A DNA stretch of 64,000 nucleotides from Muribaculum sp. An289. Its GTDB lineage: Bacteria; Bacteroidota; Bacteroidia; Bacteroidales; UBA932. How positions within the stretch are numbered: position 1 is the stretch's first letter; every line of letters starts with the position of its first letter. The notes beneath the pieces are model-generated. The model was not told where the DNA came from, did not search any database, and saw only the letters and a program-made list of their open reading frames with translations. A program made the translations under genes and the position numbers. Of the stretch, positions 1 through 12,700 are shown piece after piece. The DNA is taken from contig NZ_NFIV01000008.1 in the NCBI RefSeq assembly GCF_002159555.1, forward strand, positions 1 through 64,000, written 5' to 3'.

Positions 1-57
1 CGCGTCCTTCATCGCCTCCGGAAGCCCAGGCATCCACCGTGCGCCCTTTTCCGTTTC
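1..57 (-). rRNA. 23S ribosomal RNA, 5' end (partial)
   Basis: Read on the minus strand, this stretch matches the conserved 5' start of bacterial 23S rRNA: GGGCGCACGGTGGATGCC, then a G-rich turn, then GGAGGCGATGAAGGACG. The gene runs leftward out of the window, so only about the first 57 nt are seen, and the exact mature end is uncertain by a few bases. No 16S rRNA or spacer tRNA lies upstream, where a protein gene begins at 391, so this 23S copy is not preceded by a 16S gene. Confidence 0.9.
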
Positions 58-220
58 GCTCCGGTCTCCCGCGCGGGCGTCGCCGCCGGCGCGGGACCCC
101 GGCGGGGACGGACATCCGTCCCCGCGGTGATTCCTTCAACCTATTATCTTAATTACATAATCTGTTTTGCCTCTCGTGTTCTTTCCTGGTAAGTCAATGA
201 ACTGCCGTTTTTCTCAAACG
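58..220 (-). other. Leader of the 23S rRNA transcript with two strong hairpins
   Basis: This lies between the inferred transcription start (about 220) and the 23S 5' end. The half next to the rRNA is very GC-rich. It holds a perfect 11-bp inverted repeat (102-112 with 115-125) and a second one built on CCCGCGC/GCGCGGG (about 68-96). The promoter-proximal half is AT-rich. On the minus strand it begins with a small CCGTTT/AAACGG stem, followed by a GTTCATTGAC box that resembles rRNA leader motifs of Bacteroidetes. The hairpins may serve in precursor processing, which is inference. Confidence 0.55.
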
Positions 221-225
221 GGCTG

Positions 226-256
226 CAAAGATACGGCTAATTTTTAATTGTGCAAA
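226..256 (-). promoter_or_regulatory. Promoter of the 23S rRNA gene
   Basis: On the minus strand TTTG (253-256) and TATCTTTG (226-233) are separated by 19 nt. This is an exact match to the Bacteroidetes primary-sigma consensus TTTG-N19-21-TAnnTTTG. The predicted start is near 220, giving a leader of about 165 nt before the 23S 5' end. It indicates that the 23S gene is transcribed alone. Confidence 0.75.
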
Positions 257-390: not shown

Positions 391-2403
391 ATGGAAGAAC
401 AAGAAAAAATCCCTACGAAGCTCCCGGAAAACGCGGCGAGAGAGTTGAAAAAGGGGGAAACCTACAAACCCCTGCTTTCGCCAGACAGGACATATCCGGA
501 AGTGAACGCATGGTCAGTATCCTGGGGTCTGGTCATGACGATAATCTTCTCGGCCGCAGCGGCTTTCCTCGGACTGAAGGTCGGACAGGTGTTCGAAGCG
601 GCCATACCTATAGCAATCATTGCAGTAGGACTGTCAAGTTCATTCAAAAGGAAAAACGCCCTCGGTGAAAACGTCATAATACAGTCCATAGGCTCCTGTT
701 CGGGAGCAATTGTGGCAGGTGCTATTTTCACTCTTCCGGCACTTTATATCCTTCAGGACAAATATCCGGAGCTGACGGTGGATTTCACGAAAATATTTTT
801 CAGCTCCCTCCTCGGAGGAATCCTCGGAATACTTTTCCTCATTCCTTTCAGAAAATATTTCGTAAAGGAAATGCACGGGAAATACCCGTTCCCGGAAGCC
901 ACGGCGACTACACAGGTGCTTGTCAGCGGACAAGGCAACAGCAAAAACGCCAAACTGCTGCTTGTCAGCGGACTCATCGGAGGACTTTATGATTTTGCCG
1001 TATCGACTTTCGCGGCATGGAGCGACACCGTCACTACACGTATAATACCGTTCATGGAGACAGTGGCCGACAAAGCCAAGGTCGTATTCAAGATAAACAC
1101 CAGCGCGGCGGTTCTCGGACTGGGCTACATAATCGGATTCAAATATTCGCTCATAATCTGCTGCGGAAGTTTTCTAGTATGGCTGGTAATCATACCTCTT
1201 ATAAATATAATCTGGGGAGGGAACGTCATTGACCTGATGGGGTCCGGGATTACCCAGACCATCGGCCAGATGACACCGGAACAGATATTCGAAACGTATG
1301 CAAGGCACATCGGCATAGGAGGCATAGCTACGGCCGGAATCATAGGAATCATCAAATCGGCCGGAATCATCAAATCGGCGGTAGGCCTGGCCGCAAGCGA
1401 ATTCAAGGGCAAGAAAAATGCGGCGGACAAGGAAGTGATGCGCACCCAGAGGGACATTTCGATGAAATTCATCGTCATAGGAATCGCCTTAGCCCTCGCT
1501 GCAATATTCGTATTCTTCTGTTTCGGAGTCGTTGAAAACCCATGGCATGCGGTCGTGGGCCTGCTGATTGTGGGAATCATAGCATTCCTGTTCACGACAG
1601 TTGCCGCGAATGCCATAGCGATAGTGGGTTCGAATCCGGTGAGCGGAATGACATTGATGACCCTGATACTCGCTTCGATTATCCTCGTGGCCGCCGGCCT
1701 TAAAGGAGTAGCCGGAATGACCGCATCATTAATAATAGGAGGAGTGGTCTGCACGGCCCTTTCAGTTGCAGGGGCATTCGTCACGGACCTTAAAATAGGT
1801 TACTGGATAGGTACGACCCCTAAAAAACAGGAAAGCTGGAAATTCCTCGGTGTACTTGTCGCGGCAGCAACCGTAGGAGGTGTCATGCTCGTCCTCAACA
1901 AGGCATACGGCTTCACAGGAGAGGGAGCCCTGATCGCCCCTCAGGCAAACGCGATGGTTGCGGTGATAGAGCCGTTGATGAACGGAGGAAGCGCACCATG
2001 GCTTCTCTACGGGATAGGCGCCGCCATAGCGATACTGCTCACAGTCTTCAAGGTACCGGCACTGCCGTTCGCCCTCGGAATGTTCATTCCTTTACAACTC
2101 AACCTCCCGCTGCTCGTCGGAGGAGCCATCGCATGGTTCGTCTCTTCACGCAGCAAGAACAAGGAAATCAACGAGGCACGGAGCGAAAAAGGCACACTGA
2201 TTGCTTCGGGATTCATCGCCGGCGGAGCACTCATGGGCGTTGTCAGCGCAATCCTGAAATTCGCGAATGTGGATTTGGCGATAAAGAGCGAAGTTTGGAG
2301 CAGCACATTCGCCGAGCCCGTATCACTGGTCCCTTACATCGGACTGATGGCTTTCATGATTTGGATGATACTGAAAAAGAAAGGAAAACAAGTTTCGGAA
2401 TAA
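391..2403 (+). CDS. OPT-family oligopeptide transporter
   Basis: An integral membrane protein of 670 residues, predicted to import small peptides across the inner membrane by the OPT (oligopeptide transporter) mechanism. Hydrophobic segments run from about residue 45 to the C-terminus. The family's conserved loop appears as KYPFPEATATTQ at about 164-175, with further glycine-rich helices near 425-460. Length and start (ATG, short hydrophilic N-terminus) fit bacterial OPT proteins. Peptidase T follows 16 bp downstream in the same orientation, so imported peptides could be cleaved directly. The substrate is not shown by sequence; some family members move metal-chelate complexes instead. Confidence 0.88.
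   Translation: MEEQEKIPTKLPENAARELKKGETYKPLLSPDRTYPEVNAWSVSWGLVMTIIFSAAAAFLGLKVGQVFEAAIPIAIIAVGLSSSFKRKNALGENVIIQSIGSCSGAIVAGAIFTLPALYILQDKYPELTVDFTKIFFSSLLGGILGILFLIPFRKYFVKEMHGKYPFPEATATTQVLVSGQGNSKNAKLLLVSGLIGGLYDFAVSTFAAWSDTVTTRIIPFMETVADKAKVVFKINTSAAVLGLGYIIGFKYSLIICCGSFLVWLVIIPLINIIWGGNVIDLMGSGITQTIGQMTPEQIFETYARHIGIGGIATAGIIGIIKSAGIIKSAVGLAASEFKGKKNAADKEVMRTQRDISMKFIVIGIALALAAIFVFFCFGVVENPWHAVVGLLIVGIIAFLFTTVAANAIAIVGSNPVSGMTLMTLILASIILVAAGLKGVAGMTASLIIGGVVCTALSVAGAFVTDLKIGYWIGTTPKKQESWKFLGVLVAAATVGGVMLVLNKAYGFTGEGALIAPQANAMVAVIEPLMNGGSAPWLLYGIGAAIAILLTVFKVPALPFALGMFIPLQLNLPLLVGGAIAWFVSSRSKNKEINEARSEKGTLIASGFIAGGALMGVVSAILKFANVDLAIKSEVWSSTFAEPVSLVPYIGLMAFMIWMILKKKGKQVSE
1345..1380 (+). 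repeat. In-frame 18-bp tandem duplication
   Basis: Two adjacent 18-bp units (1345-1362 and 1363-1380) differ only at the last base and encode GIIKSA twice within the OPT transporter. It may be an old duplication or simple helix repetition. Confidence 0.5.
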
Positions 2404-2419
2404 CAATTACTCGATAAAA

Positions 2420-3640
2420 ATGGAAAAATTACTGGACAGATTCCTGCGCTATATAGCAGTGGACACGCAATCGGATCCCGGAAGTGAAACCCAGCCAAGC
2501 TCGAAGAAAGAGCTCGACCTGCTGAGGATTCTCAGGGACGAATTGGAAGCCATGGGCGTAAAGGCCGAACTGGACGAATACGGTTACGTCATGGGGACAA
2601 TACCTTCCAACATCGGGGAGGACATACCTGCAATAGGGTTCATCGCCCACGTGGACACGTCTCCCGATGCCTCGGGCACAAACATCAAACCGCAGATTAT
2701 CAGGAATTATGACGGGAAGGATATCCCATTGAAAGGAGTTGAAGGGCTCGCTTTAAAGACGGAGGAGTTCCCGGAATTGCTCAAATACAAGGGACAGACG
2801 ATAATAACCACCGACGGCACGACCCTTCTCGGAGCTGACGACAAGGCCGGAGTCGCCGAAATAATGGATGCCGTGCAATATATCATGGCACATCCCGAGT
2901 TCAGGCATGGTGAAATCAAAATCGGCTTCACCCCTGACGAGGAAATCGGTCGCGGAGTGGTAAAATTCGATGTAAAACGCTTCGGGGCCCGCTACGCATA
3001 TACGATGGACGGCGGAGAAATCGGCGAACTCGAATATGAAAATTTCAATGCCGCGGCAGCGGAAATCCACATACAGGGAAGAAACATCCATCCGGGATAC
3101 GCCAAAGGGAAAATGATTAATTCGATGCTCGTCGCCATGGAGCTTAACGCACTCCTTCCGGTCGAGCAAAGGCCTGAATATACGGAAGGATATGAAGGGT
3201 TTTTCCATCTTACCGGGATAAACGGTACCGTAGAGGAAACGACCCTCAGCTATATCATCCGCGACCATGATATGGAGTTATATGAAAGCAAAAAGAGGCT
3301 CATGCAGGATGCCGTGGACTTCATAAACAGGAAATTCGGGAATGTCGCGACATTGAAACTGAAGCACCAGTATTACAACATGCGCAAAGAGGTGGAGCCT
3401 CATTATTTCATAGTAGAGAAAGCCTTCAAGGCCATGCAGATGGAGGGCATAGAACCGAATGTCAAGCCTATCAGGGGAGGCACGGACGGGGCAAACCTGT
3501 CATTCATGGGCCTTCCTTGCCCGAACATTTTTGCCGGAGGCCACAATTTCCATGGAAAAATGGAATTCGTGCCACTCGAAAGCATGGAAAAGGCCAGCAG
3601 GGTAATACTGAACATCATTTCGCTGTTCACGGAAAAATAG
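2420..3640 (+). CDS. pepT: Peptidase T (tripeptide aminopeptidase)
   Basis: A cytoplasmic M20B metallopeptidase of 406 residues that removes the N-terminal residue from tripeptides. The zinc-site motifs are present: HVDTS (H77, D79), GADDKAG near 143, PDEEIGRG with the catalytic Glu pair near 175, TMDGGEIGELEYENFN near 200, and GGTDGANLSFMGLPCPN with a following GGHNFHGK near the C-terminus. Length matches the PepT family exactly. It lies 16 bp after the OPT transporter and 18 bp before an MFS gene, which suggests one operon for peptide uptake and use. Confidence 0.95.
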   Translation: MEKLLDRFLRYIAVDTQSDPGSETQPSSKKELDLLRILRDELEAMGVKAELDEYGYVMGTIPSNIGEDIPAIGFIAHVDTSPDASGTNIKPQIIRNYDGKDIPLKGVEGLALKTEEFPELLKYKGQTIITTDGTTLLGADDKAGVAEIMDAVQYIMAHPEFRHGEIKIGFTPDEEIGRGVVKFDVKRFGARYAYTMDGGEIGELEYENFNAAAAEIHIQGRNIHPGYAKGKMINSMLVAMELNALLPVEQRPEYTEGYEGFFHLTGINGTVEETTLSYIIRDHDMELYESKKRLMQDAVDFINRKFGNVATLKLKHQYYNMRKEVEPHYFIVEKAFKAMQMEGIEPNVKPIRGGTDGANLSFMGLPCPNIFAGGHNFHGKMEFVPLESMEKASRVILNIISLFTEK

Positions 3641-9726: not shown

Positions 9727-12700
9727 CTCACCAAATCAAAATCCTGTCTGTGCGGCAATTCCGGGCTCTTGGCATAAAACCTCCCGGCGACTGAGAACTG
9801 ACCTGAGCGGTCCGGAACGATTTCGACACTGTATTTCGCTATGCCGTCCTTGTACTCCACCGGAGTCATTTCATATTTATCCTCAATCCGGATATTCCCG
9901 TTTCTGTCGGTAGTGGCCACGATTATTTCAACGCCTATTTCTTCAGGGGAAATGTCACCTATGCTGAGTTCCACCTCCGAATGTATTTTCTCCCCGAGGA
10001 AGACCGAATGGTGCGAAGAATCGAAACGCACGAATGACAATGCCTCAACGTTCTTCCAGTCGCGCTTCATGCGGCGCTTCCACTCCGCAATGTCTTTGGC
10101 CGCCCTGAAATCATCCTTTATCAGGTGCGCCCCTCTCACGGACAACGGAATATAATATTTTTCGAGATAATCGTTCAACATCCTGTTGGTGGTAAAATTG
10201 CAAGCCACCATCGCCACAGTATTCTTGATATATCTTATCCAGCCTGAAGAAAGCCCGGACCTGTCTTTGGCATAATACAAAGGCACGATTTCCGACTCCA
10301 GCATATTGTATATGGTAGCGGCATCCAGTTCGTCCTGATAGCTCTGGTCTTCATAGGTCCGCTCCATCGGAAGGGCCCAGCCGGCACCCTCCTTGTAACC
10401 TTCTATCCACCAGCCGTCAAGCACGGAAAAATGCATGACCCCGTTCATGGCCGCCTTCTCGCCACTGGTGCCAGAAGCCTCCAAAGGACGGGTAGGATTG
10501 TTCATCCACACGTCCACTCCCTGGACCATGAGCTTGGCAAGGGAGATGTCATAATCCGGAACAAAGACAATCTTTCCTATGAACTGGGGCATCTTGGATA
10601 TGTTCGCTATCTTCTTTATCAGATCCTGGCCTGCCTTGTCGGCCGGATGCGCCTTTCCGGCAAAAATGAACTGAACCGGCCTTTCCGGGTTGTTCACTAT
10701 GGCACTCAGGCGGTCGAGGTTGCTGAACAGCAGGTGCGCCCTCTTGTAAGTGGCAAATCTGCGTGCGAAACCGATTGTAAGTATGTCCGGCCTCAACGTA
10801 TTCTGTATCGTGACAATCTGCCGCGGGGAATAATGGCTCGAAGCCTTCGGGTCGGACAACTTGTCCTTGATATAATCCATAAGCCTGCGGCGGAGGACGT
10901 TACGCACGTCCCAGACGGTCCTGTCGTCCACTTCGTATATGCCGTTGAAGCAGCTCTTGTCATAATGATGGCTCATAAACTGGCTGCCGAATACCTTGGC
11001 ATGGATGTTCTTCCATTCGGGTGCCGTCCAGGTGGCATAATGGACTCCGTTGGTCACATAACTGATATGCAGTTCTTCCGGAAGATATCCGGGCCACATG
11101 CCTGCAAAAATCTGCCGGCTCACCTTGCCGTGCATCCAGCTGACACCGTTTATCTCCTGCGAAAGATTGGCGGCAAGTACACTCATGGAAAATTTTTCAT
11201 TCCCGTCCGAAGGATTGAAACGCCCGAGCCCCATAAGGGTCGGCCAGTCGATTCTCAGACGAGAAGCATAATGGGCAAGATACGTCCGGAGCATATCCTC
11301 CGAGAAGGAATCATGGCCTGCCGGGACAGGGGTATGGGTCGTAAAAAGCGATGTGGCCCTGACTACCTCCAGGGCTTCCGTGAAAATCAGTTCCGACTGC
11401 TCCACATATTCCCTGAGCCTCTCTATGCCGGTAAAGGCCGCATGTCCTTCGTTGCAATGATATACATCGGCATTTATGCCGAGCCTGCGGAGGGCGGCGA
11501 TACCGCCTATTCCGAGAAGTATCTCCTGTTTCAGCCTGTTTTCCCAGTCCCCTCCGTAAAGCTGGTGGGTAATGGCCCTGTCGTCCTTGCGGTTATCCTC
11601 GAAATCGGTATCGAGAAGATAAAGGTCCGTCCTGCCCACTTCCACCTTCCAGAGACGGGCATAAAGGTTCCTTCCCGGGAAAGCCACGCTGATTATCACC
11701 CAATTGCCATCGGAATCCCTTACCGGGGATGCAGGAATACGCATGAAATCCTGGGCATCGTAGGTGGACACCTGGTCTCCCGAAGCCGAAAGTTTCTGGG
11801 TAAAATATCCGTAGCGGTACAGAAGGCCCACGGCAACCATGTCCACATTCATGTCGCTGCTTTCCTTGAGATAGTCGCCGGCAAGGATTCCGAGACCTCC
11901 CGAATATATCTTCAGGGAAGTATCGAGGCCGTATTCCATGCAGAAATAGGCAATCGAAGGGCCCTTCCTGTCCTTTTTTTCCTCCATATACGCGGAAAAG
12001 GCGGCATACACTTCGTCCATCCTTGCGAGGAACCCCTTGTCCTCCGACAATTCGACATAACGTCCCATCCTCACCATATCCAACATCGCGATAGGATTAT
12101 GGTCCGACAAATCCCACAGATCCGGGTCTATGCTCGCAAAAAGTTCCTTTGCAGGCTCGTTCCAGCACCACCACAGATTGCGCGAAAGCTTTTCCAGGGC
12201 GGAAAGCCTGTCCGGAAGGTGGCTGTTTATCATTATCGAGCTCCATACGGGCTTATTGACTTCGGCTTTCGCGAAAGTGTCAGGAACGTCCGGTACCATG
12301 TCTGGATACTCTCCCCTGGCCTTTACCAGATTGTCTATGGACGTGGAATAAGCTTTCCAATAGAACTCCATATTGTTCTTCCACAAAGCTATTTTCGAAA
12401 CCTCCACGGCATTCTCCCTCCATGAAGCCAGCTCCTCATCGGAAAGCCCCGCCGCTTCAAGCATGCGGGCCACCGTGCAGTCCACGACATGCTCATAACC
12501 GGCATCATCCCTGTCGACGACGGCAAGCCCGGGATGTTCCCCTTCGTAATGTTCGCTTACCCAAAGCCCGAAACCGGCAAGTGTGGTCGTAAGCGAAGGC
12601 ACATGGAAAGCCAGGCTTTCGAGCGGGGTATAGCCCCAAGGCTCATAATATGACGGGAAAACGGTCAGATCCATTCCGGCAAGGAGTTCGTAATAAGGCA

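Follow-up and report, generated by a model that had tools for sequence, protein, structure and literature searches.

Start of a standalone 23S-5S rRNA unit, very probably half of a split rrn operon, at a site shared within one Bacteroidales family

How does a 23S rRNA gene come to stand directly behind a promoter of its own, with no 16S gene in front of it? The question is raised by the first bases of the 64,000-nucleotide stretch of DNA analysed here (the window), base 1 of which is the first base of contig C35 (113,176 bp). At base 1 the window very probably cuts through a standalone 23S-5S unit, of which it holds the beginning and which constitutes one half of an rrn operon split in an ancestor of the family, the other half, 16S-tRNA-Ile-tRNA-Ala, being located 112 kb away. 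The comparison included 297 Bacteroidales genomes, of which 179 (25 genera) belong to the GTDB family of the window and 118 represent other Bacteroidales families with one genome per family. The window's own genome is called G000 and the compared genomes carry other G-numbers, followed by C-numbers for contigs and L-numbers for loci.

The 5′ end of the 23S rRNA gene was found on the minus strand at 1..60, where it is cut by the contig edge, and most of the gene lies outside the window. It was matched in a 600-base search to positions 1-60 of the RF02541 model (32.5 bits, E 3.6e-8); with 60 of the 2925 model positions present, the match does not reach the gathering score (50 bits), and the default scan listed nothing for this end. 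The leader was found at 61..193 of the minus strand and contained two strong hairpins (about 102-125 and 63-100, by fold and sequence), the fold of 188 nt of leader amounting to -77.2 kcal/mol. It is preceded on the same strand by the element GTTCATTGA at 194..202, which we take to be similar to the boxA of rrn operons, and by a promoter-proximal hairpin, CCCGTTTGAGAAAAACGG, at 205..222, similar stretches of which were present in many other leaders. The promoter, at 226..256, was found to contain a -33 TTTG (253-256) and a -7 TATCTTTG (226-233) separated by a 19-nt spacer. TTTG near -33 followed by TAnnTTTG at -7 is the consensus of the Bacteroidetes housekeeping promoter as given in a passage of PMC7366714.

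No tRNA was found within the window by a tRNA search and no 16S gene was present in it. The first neighbour, at 391..2403 on the plus strand and divergent from the 23S unit, was found to encode an OPT family oligopeptide transporter of 670 aa (Pfam PF03169, E 1.6e-111), followed by an M20 peptidase (PepT-like, named by eye; Pfam PF07687/PF01546) at 2420..3640 on the plus strand as the second conserved neighbour. The sequence-only reading had placed the 23S end at 1-57, three bases short of the match, and its further statements, namely a hairpin leader, a promoter of the form TTTG-N19-TATCTTTG, a protein gene at 391 and the absence of 16S and tRNA genes beside the 23S start, were all borne out. 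Weak matches of the leader to the sRNA families Atu_L1 and ncr952 were below threshold and were taken as chance.

The right end of C35 (112,044-113,176) was found to contain the 3′ part of a 16S gene followed by tRNA-Ile and tRNA-Ala, transcribed leftward. This 16S-Ile-Ala unit lies 112 kb from the 23S start in the same orientation, the order being that of the relative G020. The tRNA-Ala gene is followed by a strong hairpin whose T run is short, and then by sequence other than 23S. The separation of 16S and 23S exceeds the 1,500 bp that defines unlinked rRNA genes in both G000 (112 kb) and G020 (108.7 kb). The assembled parts of the G000 23S gene were the first 60 nt on C35 and the last ~680 nt at the left end of C23 (model 2243-2925), the latter followed by 5S. 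The two parts would be the ends of one gene, and the unit would then be complete in G000. The whole-genome 23S family search of G000 gave 0 matches, and this zero is no proof of absence because that fast first look missed the match at C23 1-670 (714.9 bits).

The full arrangement was found in G020, in the examined part (370-629 kb) of a contig of 2,657,245 bp (C1), elsewhere in which other rRNA genes may lie. The 16S gene (428,995-430,518) was followed by tRNA-Ile, tRNA-Ala (to 431,015) and a terminator-like hairpin. At a distance of 108.7 kb past tRNA-Ala, in which no 16S was present, a promoter, the 23S gene (539,750-542,624), 5S and a terminator were found, followed downstream of the standalone unit by genes identified by eye as acyl-CoA dehydrogenase and Etf-like. 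A linked 16S-23S-5S operon starts from 546,479, and every rRNA gene is on the plus strand. A full standalone 23S-5S unit was present in both G020 and G022 (23S 2736 and 2749 bits, respectively), and in G022 no 16S was found upstream in the 16 kb examined. A leftward extension to a full 23S and 5S, as proposed by the sequence-only reading, ends at base 1 on the window's contig and was obtained in these two relatives. The 16S copies of G020 were 99.48% identical and the 23S-5S copies 99.87% identical over 3,123 nt, the latter value suggesting that the standalone copy has been kept like a working gene.

Units of 16S-Ile-Ala beyond which no 23S was found were present in G000, G002, G004, G007, G011, G020 and G136 (six genera), the 16S being represented by only its last 23-160 nt in G002, G004, G007, G011 and G136. 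A hairpin after tRNA-Ala was found in all seven units (by eye in G020 and G136, by folding in the others), but the T run in G000 and G002 is only short. A second tRNA-Ala(TGC) was observed after the 16S-Ile-Ala of G007 (L217 76-421) and G011 (L219 5127-5379). Contig C8 of G136 (105,236 bp) was found to contain the 23S start at one end and 16S-Ile-Ala at the other, oriented as in C35. In the four genomes with both parts on one contig (G000, G020, G136 and, by its tRNA pair, G005), tRNA-Ala and 23S were 19-112 kb apart in the same order and orientation (4/4). As a separate observation, the distances between the halves were alike in G000 C35 (112 kb), G020 C1 (108.7 kb) and G136 C8 (about 104 kb), which may be due to chance. 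A comparison of the ~110-kb interval between G000 and G020 gave 4 reciprocal best hits; the only strong ones were OPT and the PepT-like peptidase, beside 23S, and the other 2 were weak, most genes of the interval thus differing between the two genomes.

The chances are slightly better than even that the standalone 23S-5S unit is an extra copy and that at least one linked operon makes most of the ribosomes, a reading compatible with the split. A linked operon is present besides the split halves in G020. In G000, two 16S 5′ ends were found, at the left end of C1 and at the right end of C15 (the latter beside a chromate-transporter homologue). At the C15 end the two are identical over exactly 109 nt, an overlap of the same length being found at six other contig-end pairs, and the 16S is therefore at least two-copy. 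That C35 stops 60 nt into 23S would also be expected where two 23S copies become identical. However, G000 yielded only a single 23S 3′ end and a single 5S, no linked 23S was seen in it, and G001 and G002 likewise gave a single 5S apiece; a further 23S copy may be hidden in contigs C17-C22 and C24-C30, which in G000 consist of N throughout. With its two 16S 5′ ends, and given the linked operon of G020, G000 may be mixed rather than wholly unlinked.

The family member G005 was found to contain, on one contig, two linked 16S-23S-5S operons, whose spacer measures 302 bp and is devoid of tRNA genes, and no standalone 23S unit was found in it. One of these operons occupies the OPT/PepT site. The genes for tRNA-Ile and tRNA-Ala were present about 17 kb upstream of the 16S of that operon (L280 1827-2043), beside chromate-transporter genes (Pfam); no 16S was found at this site, although relatives contain 16S-Ile-Ala there, and chromate-transporter homologues flank 16S in G000, G002, G006 and G020. 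Between the tRNA pair and the operon of G005, genes for a glycosyltransferase, DUF4922, SpoIID, MFS and NamZ were found. The same five genes follow tRNA-Ala in G020 and three of them adjoin the PepT-like gene in G007, and the gene order in the three genomes therefore suggests an ancestral operon with a gene block between tRNA-Ala and 23S. The simplest ancestral order would be chromate transporter, 16S-Ile-Ala, glycosyltransferase/DUF4922/SpoIID/MFS/NamZ, PepT-like, OPT and 23S-5S. With this polarity, G005 would have re-linked its rRNA genes; three genomes of its genus (G093, G173 and G179) contain a standalone 23S.

The split of a single operon would have been brought about by insertion of the gene block after its tRNA-Ala, whereas complementary deletions would have acted on two operon copies, one of which, through recombination of the boxA-like element in its leader with that in its spacer, would have been deprived of 16S, and the other of 23S-5S. 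The likeness of the standalone and linked 23S regions of G020 was found to start exactly at the boxA-like GTTCTTTGAA (98.7% over 863 nt), and an element similar to GTTCTTTGAA was present in the 16S leader, as deletions of this type would leave them. Likeness from boxA onward could also have been given by later gene conversion, however, and the common order and orientation of the halves across 19-112 kb in all four one-contig genomes fit a split operon better. The chance of complementary deletions is put a little short of even. Even chances are given to the more detailed account of the split operon, by which the operon of the family was split once before the genera diverged and its halves, each of which acquired or kept a full rrn-type promoter, remained in the same order and orientation up to 112 kb apart. 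In that account gene conversion would have maintained the likeness of the G020 copies, the 16S of G005 would have left its site, where the tRNA pair remained, and the 23S site would have been re-linked, which would make the split old, stable and reversible.

The spread of the trait was followed by a pattern search of the 297 genomes, in which TTTGCANNCC was to be followed by the 23S motif GGNGGATGCCT 153-213 nt downstream. The pattern matched 33 genomes, all of them among the 179 of the window's family, and the reversed pattern matched none of the 297. BLAST of the 30 loci returned gave 23S in 28 and none in 2 (G160 and G180), which were dropped. The junction of promoter and 23S was thus found in 31 of the 179 family genomes (11 of the 25 genera) and in none of the 118 outside, a count made up of 29 genomes by BLAST (the 28 loci and G052) and of G000 and G001 by 23S matches. 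The remaining 148 family genomes gave no verified junction match, which may be due to the frequent absence of rRNA genes from drafts. As every other family was represented by one genome and the pattern covers one leader-length range, the trait may also exist elsewhere. In the sister species G001, 23S was traced over 1,956 positions of the model, behind the same leader type and beside the same OPT gene.

A motif scan of further genome contigs gave at least 117 stretches, tested by BLAST with the rRNA genes of G005. Among the 117 listed, 23S without 16S was present in two (L032 and L060), 23S behind 16S in three (L069, L101 and L138) and no rRNA in the other 112. L032 (CALVBH010000012.1, uncultured Bacteroidales bacterium E19__bin29) was found to contain an OPT gene with 78% identity, the promoter and the 23S start. 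The three linked cases indicate that the promoter motif can by chance precede a linked 23S, and 16S was therefore sought upstream of the family loci; none was present in the 1.5 kb upstream of the 28 BLAST-confirmed loci. L060 (4368-8000; JAERMQ010000060.1, Ignavibacteria bacterium CoA_1_bin.73) was observed to contain positions 1-2854 of the 23S model, cut by the end of the stretch, with a promoter-like site TTTG...TAAGTTTG 169 nt upstream of 23S and no 16S in its 8 kb. Its 23S contained an insert resembling a group I intron, which at 41.3 bits stays below the gathering score of 50. Apparent insertions were also seen in the standalone 23S of G048 (L254 9517-11077), at about 827 and 1033 in the numbering of the G005 23S.

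Among the 32 leaders (31 genomes and L032), TAnnTTTG at -7 was conserved in 32, as was TTTG at -33 at a spacing of 18-20 (19 in 25 leaders, 18 in 4 and 20 in 3). Of these letters the pattern search specified only TTTG at -7, leaving the -33 box and the TA free, whereas the scan that found L032 required both boxes and G000 was the starting case; without these two, both boxes were present in 30/30 leaders independently of the search design. The boxA-like G[TA]TC[AT]TTGA was conserved in 30 of the 32, with the exception of G027 and L032.

In 23 of the 31 genomes, representing all 11 genera, the OPT gene was found on the same contig no more than 15 kb from the standalone 23S, divergent in 19 and in the same direction in 4 (G043, G060, G074 and G173). 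For seven of the other eight genomes (G056, G082, G129, G148, G159, G177 and G179) only 1.5 kb upstream was visible, and in G048 no OPT was present in 9.5 kb. Homologues of the M20 peptidase adjoin 23S in G001, G004, G007, G020 and G022 and are also present at the G005 site. A short element whose ends are inverted repeats (GGCCACGCCCCGACTTAA / TTAAGTCGGGGCGTGGCC) was observed between OPT and the 23S promoter of G001 (L018 about 9800-10010), and a similar end sequence was present downstream of tRNA-Ala in G000 (L017).

A single origin of the split is suggested. One compact block in many genera might also have been spread between species by horizontal transfer; however, in the tree of OPT proteins (24 rows, namely 22 of the 23 genomes with OPT near 23S, without G039, together with G005 and L032) the rows were found to group mostly by genus with the exception of G172, which makes such transfer very improbable. 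An assembly artefact, in which a repeat edge was joined to an unrelated promoter region, is rejected as very improbable: the 23S start does lie at the very contig edge, a usual place for misjoins, but the same junction type and neighbour recur in 11 genera and L032, with two full-length cases.

The proposal of a putative 23S unit that lacks a 16S and is served by a separate promoter agrees with the sequence of the window and with the same junction type in 11 genera and L032. Truncation at a contig break, which had been named as a possible refutation, is literally true for 1-60 and is outweighed by the comparison across genera. The trait is not peculiar to one genome, since 11 of the family's 25 genera in the sample show it.

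For the preferred reading of a split operon, each half would have its own rrn-type promoter, linked copies having persisted or re-formed in some members. Transcription of 23S would be started by the housekeeping sigma factor at the TTTG-N19-TATCTTTG promoter. In ordinary rrn leaders a hairpin and boxA set up antitermination, and the hairpin and boxA-like element of the standalone unit would likewise load an antitermination complex, followed by the reading of 23S and 5S by RNA polymerase up to the terminator after 5S. The 16S-Ile-Ala half would be transcribed separately, and the 23S would be matured without a 16S-23S precursor. A processing stalk of the RNase III type joining leader and trailer was unsupported, since 50-nt leaders paired with 60-nt trailers gave duplex energies no better than those of shuffles in G000, G020, G022 and G005.

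The arrangement matters in several respects. Equal amounts of 16S and 23S are needed and are guaranteed by one operon, so that distant promoters offer a natural test of how the balance is kept, and with the shared site and the re-linked case one can trace how operon structure is gained and lost. According to passages of PMC8178347, amplicons spanning 16S-ITS-23S under-count unlinked organisms, and earlier work detected no unlinked rRNA genes in the human gut; operon-spanning surveys would under-count the window's family if its members live in guts.

Unlinked rRNA genes, in which over 1,500 bp separate 16S from 23S, are described for bacteria and archaea (Brewer et al. 2020, as cited in parts of PMC8178347, PMC7761764 and PMC11261877). 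The literature searched contained no report of a family-wide rRNA split in Bacteroidales, although published supplementary tables may already list such genomes. Unlinked rRNA combined with Bacteroidales, Bacteroidetes or Rikenellaceae gave nothing on point, the combination with gut and Bacteroidota gave none among the matches listed, and no 'Bacteroid-' word occurs in the main texts of PMC7761764, PMC8178347, PMC11261877, PMC13399229 and PMC2688493.

Split rRNA operons are reported in host-dependent bacteria, above all Rickettsiales (in part of PMC2688493), and passages of PMC7761764 give a 23S-5S unit for Wolbachia and an average of 64.9% A+T for unlinked symbionts. The 23S-5S unit of the Rickettsiales type is likewise apart from 16S, but those splits are tied to genome reduction, whereas the genomes of the window's family are 1.1-3.6 Mb (some incomplete) and the window has 51% G+C. 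'Mixed' rRNA genomes account for 270 of 15,521 complete genomes in a passage of PMC7761764; G020 likewise contains split halves and a linked operon, but the halves here recur at homologous sites in several genera. With unlinked rRNA genes in general the family shares the separation of more than 1,500 bp, and differs in that 11 genera of one Bacteroidales family share one site.
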